Assembly (NCBI GenBank): GCA_018261815.1 | Contig: JAGTRL010000006.1 | Span: forward strand, 1 to 37,331 | Reading direction: 5' to 3' | DNA from: Pseudomonadota bacterium | GTDB taxonomy: Bacteria > Pseudomonadota > Gammaproteobacteria > Burkholderiales > Burkholderiaceae_C | Length of the DNA: 37,331 nucleotides | In this document: positions 7,376 to 28,852 of the stretch, in pieces | Numbering within the stretch: the first letter of the stretch is position 1 | Layout: each line of letters begins with the position of its first letter | Notes under the pieces: generated by a model | What the model was told of the DNA's origin: nothing | Seen by the model: only the letters and a program-made list of their open reading frames with translations | Databases searched by the model: none | Translations under genes and position numbers: made by a program

Positions 7376-8224
7376 TCAGTTCCAGATGTGCCACCAAGCC
7401 TTGCCGGAGCGGCGCAGGCCTTCGCTGGGCAGCTTGCTGTTCGGGAAGTTCTGCACGAACACGCGGTTGGCATCGTCGCGCAGCGTCTCCAGGCCGAGCC
7501 GGTCGTAGCTCTGCACCATGATGTACAGGGCCTCCTCGGTGGCCGGTGCGCCCTCGAAATCGACCACCGCCTGCTGTGCCCGGTTCACGGCCGCGACAAA
7601 GGCACCGCGGCGGAAGTAGTAGCGCGCGACATAGAGCTCGTATTCGGCCAGCGTGTTCAGGATGTAGTCCATGCGCACGCGCGCGTCTTCCGAATAGGGC
7701 GACTGAGGAAACTGGGTAACCAGCTGCTTGAAGGCCTGGTACGAATCGCGCGAGGCGCGCGAGTCGCGCTCGGCCAGGTCCTGTCCGGCCAGGCTGCCCA
7801 TGACGCCGATGTCGTCGTTGAAGTTGATCACGCCGCGCAAGTACAGCGCATAGTCCAACGCCGGGCTCGAGGGGTTTAGCTTGATGTAGCGCTCGATCGC
7901 CGCCAGCGCTTGCGCGCGTTCGCCACTGCGCCAGTAGGCATAGGCCAAGTCGAGTTGCGCCTGCTGCGCCAGCAGGGTTCCGGCGGCGCGGCCTTCGACA
8001 CGCTCCAGCGTCTTGATGGCAGCATCCCAGGCACCGGAAGCCATGTCCGACTTGGCGTCTGCATACAATTGTTCGACACCTGGTGGCAGAGCCGACGAAC
8101 CGGCCGGCTGCCCCGGCGGGCCCGGTGGCTGCGTCGGCTTGGAACTGCAGCCCGCCAGCGCCAGACATAGCAGTAGCAAGCCGGCCGCAGTCGAGCGCCA
8201 AACATGGAGAACGGTCATTGACAT
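7376..8224 (-). CDS. bamD: Outer membrane assembly lipoprotein BamD
   Basis: Essential TPR lipoprotein of the BAM complex that folds beta-barrel proteins into the outer membrane. It has 282 residues, with a signal peptide (GLLLLCLALAGC) and lipobox LAGC at 23-26, so C26 is the predicted lipidated residue. TPR-like helices follow, with motifs such as YADAKSDMASG, DLAYAYWRSGER and PQSPYSEDARVRMDYI, the last being a strong BamD hallmark. A second ATG two codons downstream (8218) is an equally possible start. It diverges from rluD, the same arrangement known from many betaproteobacteria and E. coli. A consensus -10 (TATAAT) lies upstream at 8272-8277. Confidence 0.96.
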   Translation of the reverse strand: MSMTVLHVWRSTAAGLLLLCLALAGCSSKPTQPPGPPGQPAGSSALPPGVEQLYADAKSDMASGAWDAAIKTLERVEGRAAGTLLAQQAQLDLAYAYWRSGERAQALAAIERYIKLNPSSPALDYALYLRGVINFNDDIGVMGSLAGQDLAERDSRASRDSYQAFKQLVTQFPQSPYSEDARVRMDYILNTLAEYELYVARYYFRRGAFVAAVNRAQQAVVDFEGAPATEEALYIMVQSYDRLGLETLRDDANRVFVQNFPNSKLPSEGLRRSGKAWWHIWN

Positions 8225-8271
8225 GGTGGCACCGGCGGCGCCCGCTGCGGCAGGGGGTGATGACGGCGCGG

Positions 8272-8277
8272 ATTATA
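8272..8277 (-). promoter_or_regulatory. bamD -10 element
   Basis: Reading on the minus strand, 8277-8272 is TATAAT, a perfect sigma-70 -10 box, in an otherwise GC-rich sequence and 47 bases upstream of the bamD ATG. No convincing -35 is seen about 17 bases further up. The last base is shared with the likely ribosome binding site of the divergent rluD gene. Confidence 0.6.
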
Positions 8278-8288
8278 GGGAGCCGCCT

Positions 8289-9251
8289 GTGCCTTCGAGC
8301 CTGGACGGCACCGACGATCCGCCCGACAGCGACGACACCGTTGGCCACGAATTGCGCGAGCTGACGGTCGACGCCGCGCTGCACGGCCAGCGGCTCGACA
8401 AGGCGCTGGTCACGCTGGCGCCTGAGTTCTCGCGCAACCACCTCCAGTCGCTGGTCGAGCGTGGCCACGTGTGTATCGACGGCAAGGTGGCCGAGGTGGT
8501 GGCGCGCAAGCTGCGTGCCGGCCAGAGCCTGCAGTTGGAACTGGTGCCCACCGAAGAGAGCCTCGCCTTCCGGCCGCAGCCGATGGCGCTGGACATCGTC
8601 TTCGAGGACGAGCACTTGCTGGTGCTCGACAAGCCGGCTGGCCTGGTGGTTCACCCGGCAGCCGGCAACTGGTCCGGCACCTTGCTCAACGGTCTGCTGG
8701 CCCATCACGCTGCGGCAGCGCTTCTGCCGCGCGCCGGCATCGTTCACCGCCTGGACAAGGACACCTCGGGCCTGATGGTGGTGGGCAAGACCCTGCCCGC
8801 GGTGACCGCGCTGTCGCGAGCCATCGCCGCACGCGAGGTGCACCGCCACTACCTGGCGCTGGCCCACGGCCGCGTGCCCTGGGACGAGCGAAGCGTCGAT
8901 GCAGCCATCGCCCGTGATCCGGTCTCCCGAGTCCGCATGGCGGTGCTGGCCTCGGGCAAGCCGGCACGCACCGACCTGCAATGTGTCGCCCGGGCCGCGG
9001 CCTACAGTGCGCTGGCGTGCAAGCTGCACACCGGCCGTACCCACCAGATCCGCGTGCACCTGGCGTGGCTGGGCCATCCACTGGTGGCGGATCTGCTGTA
9101 TGGCGGCGCGCTTGCTCTGGGGCTGCGCCGCCAGGCGCTGCATGCCGCGCGGCTGCGGCTGCAGCATCCGATCGGCGGCGCCTGGTTGGACTTCGAGCGT
9201 CTGCCGCCTGCCGATTTTTCCAAGGCCTGGGCACAGGTCACGCAAGGCTGA
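8289..9251 (+). CDS. rluD: 23S rRNA pseudouridine(1911/1915/1917) synthase RluD
   Basis: Makes the pseudouridines of helix 69 in 23S rRNA, needed for normal 50S function. The preferred GTG start at 8289 gives 320 residues. An S4 RNA-binding domain begins near residue 28 (HGQRLDKALV, then NHLQSLVERGHVCIDG). The catalytic domain carries IVHRLDKDTSGLMVVGKT with catalytic D156, followed by GRTHQIRVHLAWLGHPLVADLLYGG. The GTG is preceded by AGGGAG at 8277-8282, an ideal ribosome binding site. An in-frame ATG at 8223 would add 22 residues, but it overlaps the bamD start and would translate through the bamD -10 box. A still longer reading lies antisense within bamD. Confidence 0.93.
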   Translation: MPSSLDGTDDPPDSDDTVGHELRELTVDAALHGQRLDKALVTLAPEFSRNHLQSLVERGHVCIDGKVAEVVARKLRAGQSLQLELVPTEESLAFRPQPMALDIVFEDEHLLVLDKPAGLVVHPAAGNWSGTLLNGLLAHHAAAALLPRAGIVHRLDKDTSGLMVVGKTLPAVTALSRAIAAREVHRHYLALAHGRVPWDERSVDAAIARDPVSRVRMAVLASGKPARTDLQCVARAAAYSALACKLHTGRTHQIRVHLAWLGHPLVADLLYGGALALGLRRQALHAARLRLQHPIGGAWLDFERLPPADFSKAWAQVTQG

Positions 9252-9274
9252 AGCCGCCGTCCCGGCAGCGGCGT

Positions 9275-9280
9275 TACAAT
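9275..9280 (+). promoter_or_regulatory. Candidate -10 for the scpB-rluB transcript
   Basis: TACAAT (in GCGTTACAATGCG) lies 24 bases after the rluD stop. The same TAnAAT-GCG style appears before ndk and hisZ in this window. No good -35 is visible. If used, the scpB mRNA would have a leader of about 230 bases. Confidence 0.45.
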
Positions 9281-9373
9281 GCGCCGAAATTGGCGCTGCG
9301 CCCGAACACGGCAAACCGATCCGGGCCGCACCCGACGCCATCCATCCGCCCCCGAGGCGCAGGACCTTCTACT

Positions 9374-9487
9374 GTCGAGTAGCACCAGGGCAAGCCTGAT
9401 CCGGCTGTCCCTACTGACATGAGCTTCGATCCACCGACGGTGCGTGACGCACCGCGAACCACGGGTGAACCCCGCGGCCTTCGGGCC
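9374..9487 (+). ncRNA. Candidate structured 5' leader of scpB
   Basis: Consecutive potential stems precede scpB. A: GTC(g)AGTAG at 9374-9382 with CTACTGAC at 9411-9418, enclosing an inner CAGG/CCTG hairpin (9386-9389 with 9395-9398). B: GGTGCG at 9439-9444 with CGCACC at 9448-9453. C: CGGG at 9462-9465 with CCCG at 9471-9474. D: GGCC-TTCG-GGCC at 9476-9487, a UUCG tetraloop. The arrangement suggests a folded leader or cis-regulatory RNA. I do not recognise a known riboswitch class. High GC makes chance stems common, so this is tentative. The rest of the 262-base gap holds only the candidate promoter and a mini-ORF. Confidence 0.35.
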
Positions 9488-9490
9488 TAG
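9419..9490 (+). CDS. Possible 23-codon leader ORF upstream of scpB
   Basis: ATG at 9419 opens a frame of 23 codons ending in TAG at 9488-9490, 23 bases before the scpB ATG. The peptide would begin [10 protein letters not shown] and end in TGEPRGLRA. It spans hairpins B to D of the leader, and its stop directly follows the UUCG hairpin. No clear ribosome binding site precedes the ATG, and I know no family for it. It could be chance; only conservation or ribosome profiling would show that it is translated. Confidence 0.2.
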
Positions 9491-9513
9491 ATCCAACCAC
9501 AAGCACGTTGTCC

Positions 9514-10193
<680 letters not shown>

Positions 10194-10197
<4 letters not shown>

Positions 10198-12173
10198 ACC
10201 CACAAGATTCCGATTTGCCAGGCGTCAGCGCGCCGCAGGCCGACATGGCCGAAGGCGCCACACCGGATCCGGCTGCGCCCCAGGAAGCAGCGGTCGTGGT
10301 CGAAAAGCGCCGGCGCGCGCCACGCAAGAAGCCGGTGGTGGCTGTTTCCGATGCGCCTGAATCTTCGGCTGCCAATCTGCCCGAGGCCGTGCCCACCGAG
10401 TCGCCCGCCGAGCCGGCGACGACCGAAGCCGCGAGCACGGCTCAGGCTTCCGAGCCGGCGTCATCCGCAGAACCAGCGGGCGATGCACCGAGCTCTGCGC
10501 AAGGTAGCGCCGTGCCGCGCGAAGGCGGGCGGCGCAACCGCAACCGCCGGCGCGGCCGGCGTGGCGGCGACGCAGCGCGTGACCTGGCCGGCAACGCTGC
10601 CGTGGACGGCGTGACCGCCGGCGAAGGCGATGCCGCGCCCGCTGCGGCCGAGGCACGCATGCATTTGCCCCAGCCCGAGGTCGGCGAGGTCTTCGCCAAC
10701 GTCGTGTCCGGCGCCTATGACGTCGAGACACCGCCGGCAGAGGGCGAAAGCCTGCCGCTGGTGCCGCCCAAGCGTGTGCTGGCGGCGGAGCCCGATGCGC
10801 CCAAGCTGCAGAAGGTGCTGGCTCAGGCCGGCATCGGCTCGCGTCGCGACATGGAGCAGCTGGTGGCCGAAGGCCGCATCACCGTCAACGGTGAGCCTGC
10901 ACACGTGGGCCAGCGCATCTCCTTCGGCGACCAGCTGCGCATCGACGGCAAGGTGATCAAGGCGCGCATCGCGCCGCCGCCGCCGCGCGTGCTGGCCTAT
11001 CACAAGCCTGCGGGCGAGGTGGTCACGCACGACGACCCGCAGCACCGGCCCACCGTGTTCCGCCGCCTGCCGCGCCTGCCGCAGGGCAAGTGGCAGTCGG
11101 TCGGACGCCTGGACATCAACACCGAAGGGCTGCTGCTGTTCACCAACTCGGGTGAGCTGGCCAATCAGCTGATGCATCCGCGCTTTGGCGTCGAGCGTGA
11201 GTACGCCGTGCGCGTGCTCGGCGTGGTCGACGAGGCCGAACGCGAACGCCTGCTGCAGGGCGTGGAGATCGACGGCCAGACCTGTGCCTTCAAGAGCATC
11301 GAGGACGGCGGCGGCGAAGGCGCCAACCGCTGGTACCGAGTGGTCATCACCGAAGGCCGCAATCGCGAGGTGCGCAGGCTGTTCGAGGCCGTGGGCCATG
11401 CGGTGAGCCGGCTGATCCGCGTGCGCTACGGTTCGGTGGTGCTGCCGCGCGGCCTGCGCCGCGGCCTGTGGGTCGACCTGGATGAGGTGGACGTGTGGAC
11501 GCTGCGCCGCATGGCGCGGCCGAACCCGCGGCCACCGGCACCCAATGGCGAGGGCGCCGAGGCCGGGCCGCCGCAGCCGCGTGCCGACAGCGAGCGGCGC
11601 GGCCGCCGCGGTGGCCGCAAGGGCCGCAACGATCGGCGCCGCGAGGGCGGTGAGCGTCCGCCGCGCATCGATGCCGCCTTGCCTTTCGAGCGTCCCGAAC
11701 GCGGCCCGCGGCCTGAGCGCGCTGAGCGTGGCGAAGGCGGCCCGATCCCCAACCCGCTGCAGCAGACCTTCGACAAGCGCGCCATCCAGCAGGCGCGTGC
11801 GCAGCGCGAGATCAACGAGGACGGGCCGATCCCCAACCCGCTGCAGCAGACCTTCGACAAGCGCGCCATCCAGCAGGAGCGTACGCGCCGCGTCGAGATC
11901 AGCGAGGACGGCCCGATCCCCAACCCGCTGCAACAGACCTATGACAAGCGCTTCGTGCAAAAGGGTCCGGGGCTGAACCTGGGCCGCGGCGGCGGTGGCG
12001 GCAAGAAGAAGCCGGCCGCACCGCGTCAGCCCGACCCGATGCAGACCGCGGTGGGCTACATCGGCGCCGATGCATTCACCCGCAAGTCGGCTGCGGGCCG
12101 CGGTGCGCGGCCGAACCGCGGCAAGCCCGGCGGGCGCAGCGGCGGTGGCGGCGGAGGTGGCCGCGGCCGCTAG
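10194..12173 (+). CDS. rluB: 23S rRNA pseudouridine(2605) synthase RluB with long disordered tails
   Basis: Isomerises U2605 of 23S rRNA. It has 659 residues, over twice the E. coli length (about 290). Residues 1-200 are low complexity (Ala/Glu/Pro/Arg with a basic RRRAPRKK patch). The S4 domain starts near 204 ([20 protein letters not shown]). The catalytic motif is [17 protein letters not shown] with D307, followed by [20 protein letters not shown]. Residues about 435-659 are a second basic, Gly/Arg-rich tail holding three near-identical copies of [18 protein letters not shown] and ending in a Gly/Arg cluster. The tails probably bind RNA or ribosomes non-specifically; that is inference. It overlaps scpB by four bases. 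Confidence 0.93.
11739..11963 (+). repeat. Three in-frame repeats in the RluB C-terminal tail
   Basis: Copies start at 11739, 11823 and 11910 (residues 516, 544 and 573), spaced 84 and 87 bases. Each encodes [10 protein letters not shown](F/Y)DKR followed by AIQQ or FVQK. The DNA is nearly identical over the core, suggesting recent duplication or protein-level selection. The linkers are basic and acidic ([21 protein letters not shown]). Confidence 0.9.

Positions 12174-28767: not shown

Positions 28768-28852
<85 letters not shown>

Follow-up and report, generated by a model that had tools for sequence, protein, structure and literature searches.

A candidate long structured 5' leader of the scpB-rluB mRNA in a family of Burkholderiales

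Described leaders and the scpB-rluB locus

Ribosome standby sites adjoin structured start regions. A 5'-terminal stem-loop of ompA was reportedly described by Emory in 1992, and Arnold in 1998 is said to be a further source on the ompA 5' UTR. For E. coli, the review PMC2777011 describes elements of the ompA 5' UTR that stabilise the mRNA, and PMC12691595 describes for cfa a long 5' UTR with a stem-loop, a pyrimidine-rich tract and Rho-dependent termination. As in ompA, the leader that we propose for scpB has a hairpin at its putative 5' end and more hairpins before the start. The two differ in that mRNA stabilisation is on record for ompA, whereas for the scpB leader it is a prediction, and in that a Shine-Dalgarno core is present in few scpB leaders; no sequence relation between them is claimed. 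The cfa leader is likewise long with a stem-loop, and its pyrimidine tract may be set beside an excess of C over G in the scpB leader. Rho termination is reported for cfa, whereas for the scpB leader it would be a prediction of the rival reading given below.

The locus lies on a contig of a 4.35 Mb draft genome. The whole stretch of DNA that was analysed, 37,331 nt in length, is called the window here, and the parts of the locus are placed in it as follows.

8013 to 9251, plus strand: upstream gene, putatively rluD (the name used in the preliminary description); an open reading frame whose start is the mechanical ORF start
9275 to 9280, plus strand: TACAAT, putative -10 element of the scpB promoter, proposed on its family-wide recurrence
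9287 to 9513, plus strand: putative untranslated leader of the scpB mRNA, its start assumed 7 nt past the -10 element
9514 to 10197, plus strand: scpB, first gene behind the leader (TIGR00281, 107.9 bits, cut-off 89.2)
10194 to 12173, plus strand: rluB (NF007976, 291.7 bits, cut-off 290), overlapping scpB by 4 nt

rluB is presumably co-transcribed with scpB, and ndk, rlmN, ispG, hisS, bamB, der, hflX and hflK are found downstream on the same strand. We read the gap ahead of scpB as a long structured 5' leader of the scpB-rluB mRNA, whose end hairpins would protect the 5' end and flank a start site poor in Shine-Dalgarno sequence, and we give this reading a probability of about 0.5.

Promoter position and leader length across the family

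The preliminary description had pointed to a TACAAT -10 candidate far ahead of the scpB ATG. This hexamer was found at 9275-9280, and the ATG at 9514 lies 239 nt further on, within a gap of 262 nt that runs from the upstream stop (9251) to scpB. Between 9251 and 9513 there are three hexamers of the form T(A/T)NNNT, of which TACAAT alone matches TATAAT at five of six positions. A strict two-hexamer sigma-70 scan of 9000-9700 returned no promoter.

ScpB was found in 73 of 81 genomes of the genus and in 294 of 299 genomes of the family, the nearest relatives of the protein being those of Rubrivivax, Methylibium, Piscinibacter, Roseateles and similar. The family sample is non-random, having been taken by ScpB match rank among the matches listed, and 208 loci were left after the outgroup, identical upstream DNA and loci with less than 250 nt upstream had been removed. 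Three genomes (G033, G092 and G093) contained two long ScpB matches each, and are perhaps mixed assemblies.

In a scan of 400 nt, 186 of the 208 distinct loci had TACAAT 94-373 nt (median 232) ahead of the scpB ATG; the loci are related by descent, so that such counts are not independent. A single locus in this set had the hexamer in more than one copy. In an earlier set it was found at 149 of 170 loci, where 20 sets of shuffles had it at 0.95 loci on average. When these 149 sites were aligned, 91% had G at -2 and 68% had C at -1, and several loci without TACAAT carried TACACT. The homologue of the upstream gene ended ahead of scpB in 107 of 110 loci, and the gap between the two genes had a median of 251 nt (range 54-382, n = 167), falling below 100 nt in one locus of the 167. 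A leader running from about 9287, as put forward in the preliminary description, is borne out by this comparison of promoter position, in so far as the hexamer predicts the start.

We further found that, in 70 of 71 pairs, identity was higher in the leader than at fourfold sites of the flanking genes, with means of 0.75 for leaders, 0.62 for fourfold sites and 0.62 for shuffled leaders; the clades that supplied these pairs had been chosen for leader similarity and the leaders were aligned with gaps, and conservation is thereby overstated. The window's own three pairs gave 0.70, 0.73 and 0.69 for the leader against 0.62, 0.66 and 0.72 for fourfold sites, the third pair being reversed and the last two resting on 65 and 32 sites. 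The outcome that the preliminary description had set against its own proposal, no conservation across relatives, does not hold at the family level. The leaders split into many small similarity groups, and that of the window has four members.

Among other families of the order, 22 genomes had a ScpB match and 20 of them were taken, the scpB start being unrecovered in one. The 19 other-family genomes (L192-L211) had no match to the upstream gene in about 650 nt before scpB, and the scpB neighbourhood seems to be rearranged between families of the order. Several of the upstream ends in these genomes resemble the end of scpA, as judged by eye. A -10-like hexamer was located 153-242 nt before the ScpB match at four of the other-family loci (L193, L194, L206 and L207), and the long leader may therefore extend beyond the family. 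At one of these (L206) a tRNA-like sequence, again judged by eye, stands directly ahead of scpB.

The composition of the leader bears on the main rival to our reading, a Rho-dependent attenuator, in which a C-rich leader would recruit Rho and transcription would terminate early unless hairpins, ribosomes or a small RNA hid the site. The median C/G was 1.21 in 186 leaders, compared with 1.03 within 186 scpB genes and 1.02 in 184 stretches upstream of the promoter. The ratio exceeded 1 in 85% of leaders; that of the window leader was 1.43, and its best 78-nt stretch reached 1.89. The long cfa leader of E. coli (PMC12691595) would be a precedent. However, the C excess is moderate and the region contains stable hairpins, and we regard attenuation by Rho as rather unlikely.

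Hairpins of the leader and the scpB start site

The hairpins of the window leader, and the stretch between the last of them and the start codon, are located as follows.

9292 to 9339, plus strand: P1, predicted 5'-terminal hairpin of 12 pairs
9374 to 9418, plus strand: P2, bulged stem with an inner hairpin, -17.0 kcal/mol
9438 to 9454, plus strand: P3, CGGTGCG/CGCACCG hairpin of 7 bp, -10.4 kcal/mol
9476 to 9487, plus strand: P4, GGCC-UUCG-GGCC hairpin with 4 pairs and a UUCG loop, -5.4 kcal/mol
9488 to 9513, plus strand: stretch before the scpB start, without a Shine-Dalgarno core

P1, which the preliminary description had not listed, starts 5 nt past the assumed transcript start at 9287, and its 5'-terminal place is as putative as that start. 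Of its 12 pairs, 12 formed in the window and 11, 9 and 11 in the three closest relatives; its segments folded alone gave -20.9 to -25.2 kcal/mol in the four sequences, and at no pair was there a change on both sides in the four-sequence alignment. The other hairpins had been described before. The bulged stem around an inner hairpin at 9374-9418 was present, with eight outer pairs, a bulged G and eight inner pairs, and the four aligned sequences formed 8, 6, 2 and 3 of the outer and 8, 8, 5 and 4 of the inner pairs. The GGTGCG/CGCACC hairpin exists, its extent being one pair longer than the 9439-9453 first given, and 7, 7, 6 and 5 of its 7 pairs were formed. The UUCG-capped GGCC hairpin was also recovered, with 4, 4, 3 and 2 of its 4 pairs formed. 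The 3' end of P4 lies 26 nt before the ATG, and the corresponding distance is 21-26 nt for the hairpins of the three closest relatives. By position P4 appears to be the window's counterpart of the family's pre-scpB hairpin; with four pairs it misses the strict scan given below (stems of at least five pairs) and is outside the 121 hairpins counted there. Two similar short blocks, GATCCACC and GATCCAACC, were seen at 9428-9435 (before P3) and at 9490-9498 (after P4), and the block at 9428-9435 falls within a long invariant run of the leader alignment of the window clade.

By themselves the window hairpins would be unremarkable in DNA of such high G+C content. The 244-nt fold had an energy of -85.1 kcal/mol with a z of -1.26, and 22 of 200 shuffles were at least equal. 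Mean fold z was -0.69 in 149 leaders, compared with -1.18 in 82 coding stretches of scpB and -0.50 in 138 stretches from the end of the upstream gene, and whole-leader fold energy, being no better than the coding controls, was dropped as evidence. In local folding of 186 leaders, mean z was -0.53 at 20-65 nt past the -10 start, -0.59 over a 45-nt stretch that stops 15 nt short of the ATG, and +0.19 from -30 to +15. These signals are modest, because the stretch from -15 to +30 was lower still (-0.79) and one mid-leader stretch was as low as -0.48. What rises above chance is comparative throughout, namely promoter position, leader length and hairpin placement; the comparison also shows few Shine-Dalgarno cores and pairing kept in a sister clade.

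In 121 of 208 leaders there was a stem of at least five pairs whose 3' end lies 12-26 nt upstream of the scpB ATG, against a mean of 37.9 and a maximum of 49 in 30 sets of shuffles. ndk, with its short leader and strong ribosome site, is a ready comparison at the same loci, and there the equivalent stem was found in 7 of 47 cases, without clear excess over the shuffles (mean 4.8, maximum 10). The 121 placed hairpins use 78 different 5' strands, and GCCGG/CCGGC, GCCTGC/GCAGGC and CCACCGC/GCGGTGG are among the types seen in single clades. Selection thus probably keeps the location of the hairpin rather than its sequence. A 4-base Shine-Dalgarno core was present in 36 of 186 scpB leaders (23.9 in shuffled tails) and in 46 of the 47 ndk loci, which include duplicates. 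At these 47 loci the nearest of four -10-like hexamers lay 42-88 nt (median 45) before the ndk ATG, a distance comparison that is indicative, since the ndk scan took four hexamers and the scpB scan one. As both the distances and the cores differ from those of ndk, this neighbour of scpB has neither the long leader nor the scarcity of Shine-Dalgarno cores.

The preliminary description had named compensatory changes in the stems as support for its proposal. Such changes were found in a sister clade, and covariation support in the window's own clade, where four sequences in all align with the window leader, is weak. For the latter, RNAalifold gave a covariation penalty of +2.06 with 4 of 41 pairs compensated. 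The P1-P4 structure had 82.2% of its cells paired and a score reached by 6 of 500 shuffles, and partners slid by 3 columns gave five double-changed cells, the same as the structure itself. Of the structure's own five double changes, four were in P2 and one in P3, and P1 and P4 had no such change. Among the helices, pairing was best in P1 and P3 and worst in outer P2, P2 being poor in two of the four sequences.

The sister clade (clade A) comprises 25 sequences grouped by leader similarity, and its structure has 16 pairs in a 5' hairpin and a terminal hairpin. Paired cells amounted to 88.7% against 83.3 in shuffles, cells altered on both sides to 21 against 7.7, and the covariation score to 0.236 against 0.152, each reached by 0 of 500 shuffles. 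Pairs altered on both sides numbered 7 against 4.5, a value reached by 4 of 500 shuffles, and further pair types were reached by 24 of 500; related sequences can beat shuffles without any structure, and these figures are to be read accordingly. Slid partners were 25-53% paired, a comparison that favours the structure, since it was derived from the same alignment. When the 5' hairpin was realigned alone, it gave 7 double-changed cells against 2.2 (0 of 500 shuffles), and one slid version scored 0.114 against 0.128. In clade C, RNAalifold placed a compensatory change in 12 of 46 predicted pairs (covariation term -3.17), and in clade D the covariation term was +0.11; some of the pairing in both clades takes in the -10 element itself, which is expected to lie outside the RNA. 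For 20 leaders of the part of the family denoted L212-L251, the MAFFT alignment left the variable hairpins out of register and gave an empty consensus fold.

Pairing was also compared between pairs of leaders. A first, ungapped version kept 48 of 207 changed pairs against 18 of 74, and a second, loosely aligned version gave 0.24 against 0.24. Neither gave a signal, owing, we think, to the inclusion of unrelated or misregistered pairs. The third version used stricter identity limits that were set after these two null versions, and we cite the strictest of its three cut-offs, at which close relatives (76-97% identity) kept 56 of 105 changed pairs in the terminal hairpin, compared with 127 of 277 when the partners were slid and 27 of 103 among the control hairpins. 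Double changes were kept in 15 of 20 cases in the terminal hairpin, 2 of 20 for slid partners and 17 of 24 in control hairpins. At the looser cut-offs of 0.68 and 0.72, fractions of 0.43 and 0.49 were kept, with 0.35 and 0.42 for slid partners. The margin of the terminal hairpin over its own slid partners in this test is small. We take the comparisons together as supporting hairpins throughout the leader, and as moderate support for a special standing of the terminal one.

The same findings bear on the possibility that the promoter is kept in place close to where the upstream gene ends and the intervening DNA is simply tolerated, the hairpins near the start reflecting a general avoidance of structure over the ribosome site. 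Ordinary folding of the whole leader would fit such an account, as would the division of the leaders into many small groups. It is harder to reconcile with the pairs maintained in clade A, with the rarity of short gaps and with the lack of a clear excess of the positioned hairpin at ndk, and we consider it unlikely.

Under the favoured reading, a long leader with structured ends, RNA polymerase would start about 7 nt past TACAAT, and P1 would close the 5' end of the transcript and, by analogy with ompA, slow decay that depends on the 5' end. P4 or its counterparts would lie just upstream of the ribosome footprint and would prevent other parts of the leader from pairing with the Shine-Dalgarno-poor start site. 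As a net result, the stability and translation of the scpB mRNA, and hence condensin dosage, would be set. Transcription start, decay, translation and any regulation are in this respect predictions of the reading. The hairpin may also be likened to standby sites, in that it would adjoin the ribosome footprint at a weak start site.

A more speculative extension, which we hold to be improbable, is that a cis-regulatory leader present in most of the family couples the ScpB condensin and RluB 23S rRNA pseudouridylation to the state of the cell, by way of position-fixed hairpins that act through Rho attenuation or masking of the start site. If the favoured reading is right, a large family of environmental bacteria would set its condensin dosage in part after transcription begins. 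A leader of this kind could also escape sequence-based RNA searches, since the placement of the hairpin is kept and its sequence is not.

Known RNA families, terminators and small reading frames

Rfam 15 at the gathering score gave nothing in the leader when the whole window was searched, in line with the earlier remark that no known riboswitch was recognised there. A tRNA gene at 28771-28852 on the minus strand is the sole Rfam match at threshold in the window. Over 9150-9650, a search at E up to 10 gave three matches, all well under gathering, and Rfam matched none of the 12 loci searched out of 29 relative loci. A riboswitch or other known RNA was rejected as a candidate, with nothing at threshold at gathering and relaxed settings. 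Of the 25 most enriched 8-mers listed, none was shared by more than 25 of 149 leaders, and a riboswitch-like core common to the family was not seen in these sequences. Full-text literature searches returned no account of an scpB leader, going by titles and the starts of abstracts.

We then consider a covariance model of the clade A 5' hairpin (R1). Across the 81 genus genomes, 22 of its matches exceeded 40 bits, and every one of them lay upstream of scpB. Because 21 of these were the sequences that built the model, the informative part of the search is that nothing else scores as high. Five weaker matches elsewhere each lay inside at least one long open frame, and in two of them the frame resembled a histidine kinase by eye. 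On the window R1 gave 33 weak matches, none in the leader. As the strong matches were confined to scpB and the window leader had no match at all, the clade A 5' hairpin was rejected as a wider element. A further possibility is a feedback or ligand-sensing leader, bound by a product of the operon or by a metabolite. A long hairpin-bearing leader ahead of an operon, with no described RNA family at threshold, is what such a sensor might look like. The lack of a broadly shared block among the enriched words listed and the restricted matches of R1 argue against it, and we judge it very unlikely.

The preliminary description had also allowed that the gap might carry a small RNA. This suggestion lost ground, as there were 0 intrinsic-terminator-like sites in 9000-9700. 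For a separate small RNA or leader peptide encoded in the gap, one could cite a promoter-like element of its own and the many chance open reading frames of G+C-rich DNA. Upstream frames ending near the scpB start numbered 89 against 83.8 in shuffles (n = 186), and 151 against 147.8 when GTG and TTG starts were included (n = 186). Together with the missing terminator, this makes a product of its own from the gap highly improbable, and control by an upstream reading frame or leader peptide was rejected for want of enrichment.

A mini-hairpin abutting the ATG was rejected as a general feature: it reached position -1 in 27 of 170 loci where 10.8 would be expected, and a single clade supplied roughly half of the 27. 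In L108, L148, L154, L163, L190 and their relatives, the sequence directly ahead of the scpB ATG is a perfect TGAC-GAAA-GTCA mini-hairpin, identical in all 13 aligned members.

The 8 nt downstream of the terminal hairpin included four or more T for 8 of 21 hairpins in L212-L251, compared with 1 of 100 elsewhere, and intrinsic attenuation is possible in that part of the family because of these T-rich tails. A CCTTTTCCCGGAA-like block was seen past the terminal hairpin, in the last 30 nt before scpB, in L226, L240, L243, L249, L250 and others of L212-L251, where it lends the terminal hairpin a terminator-like or pyrimidine-tract look.
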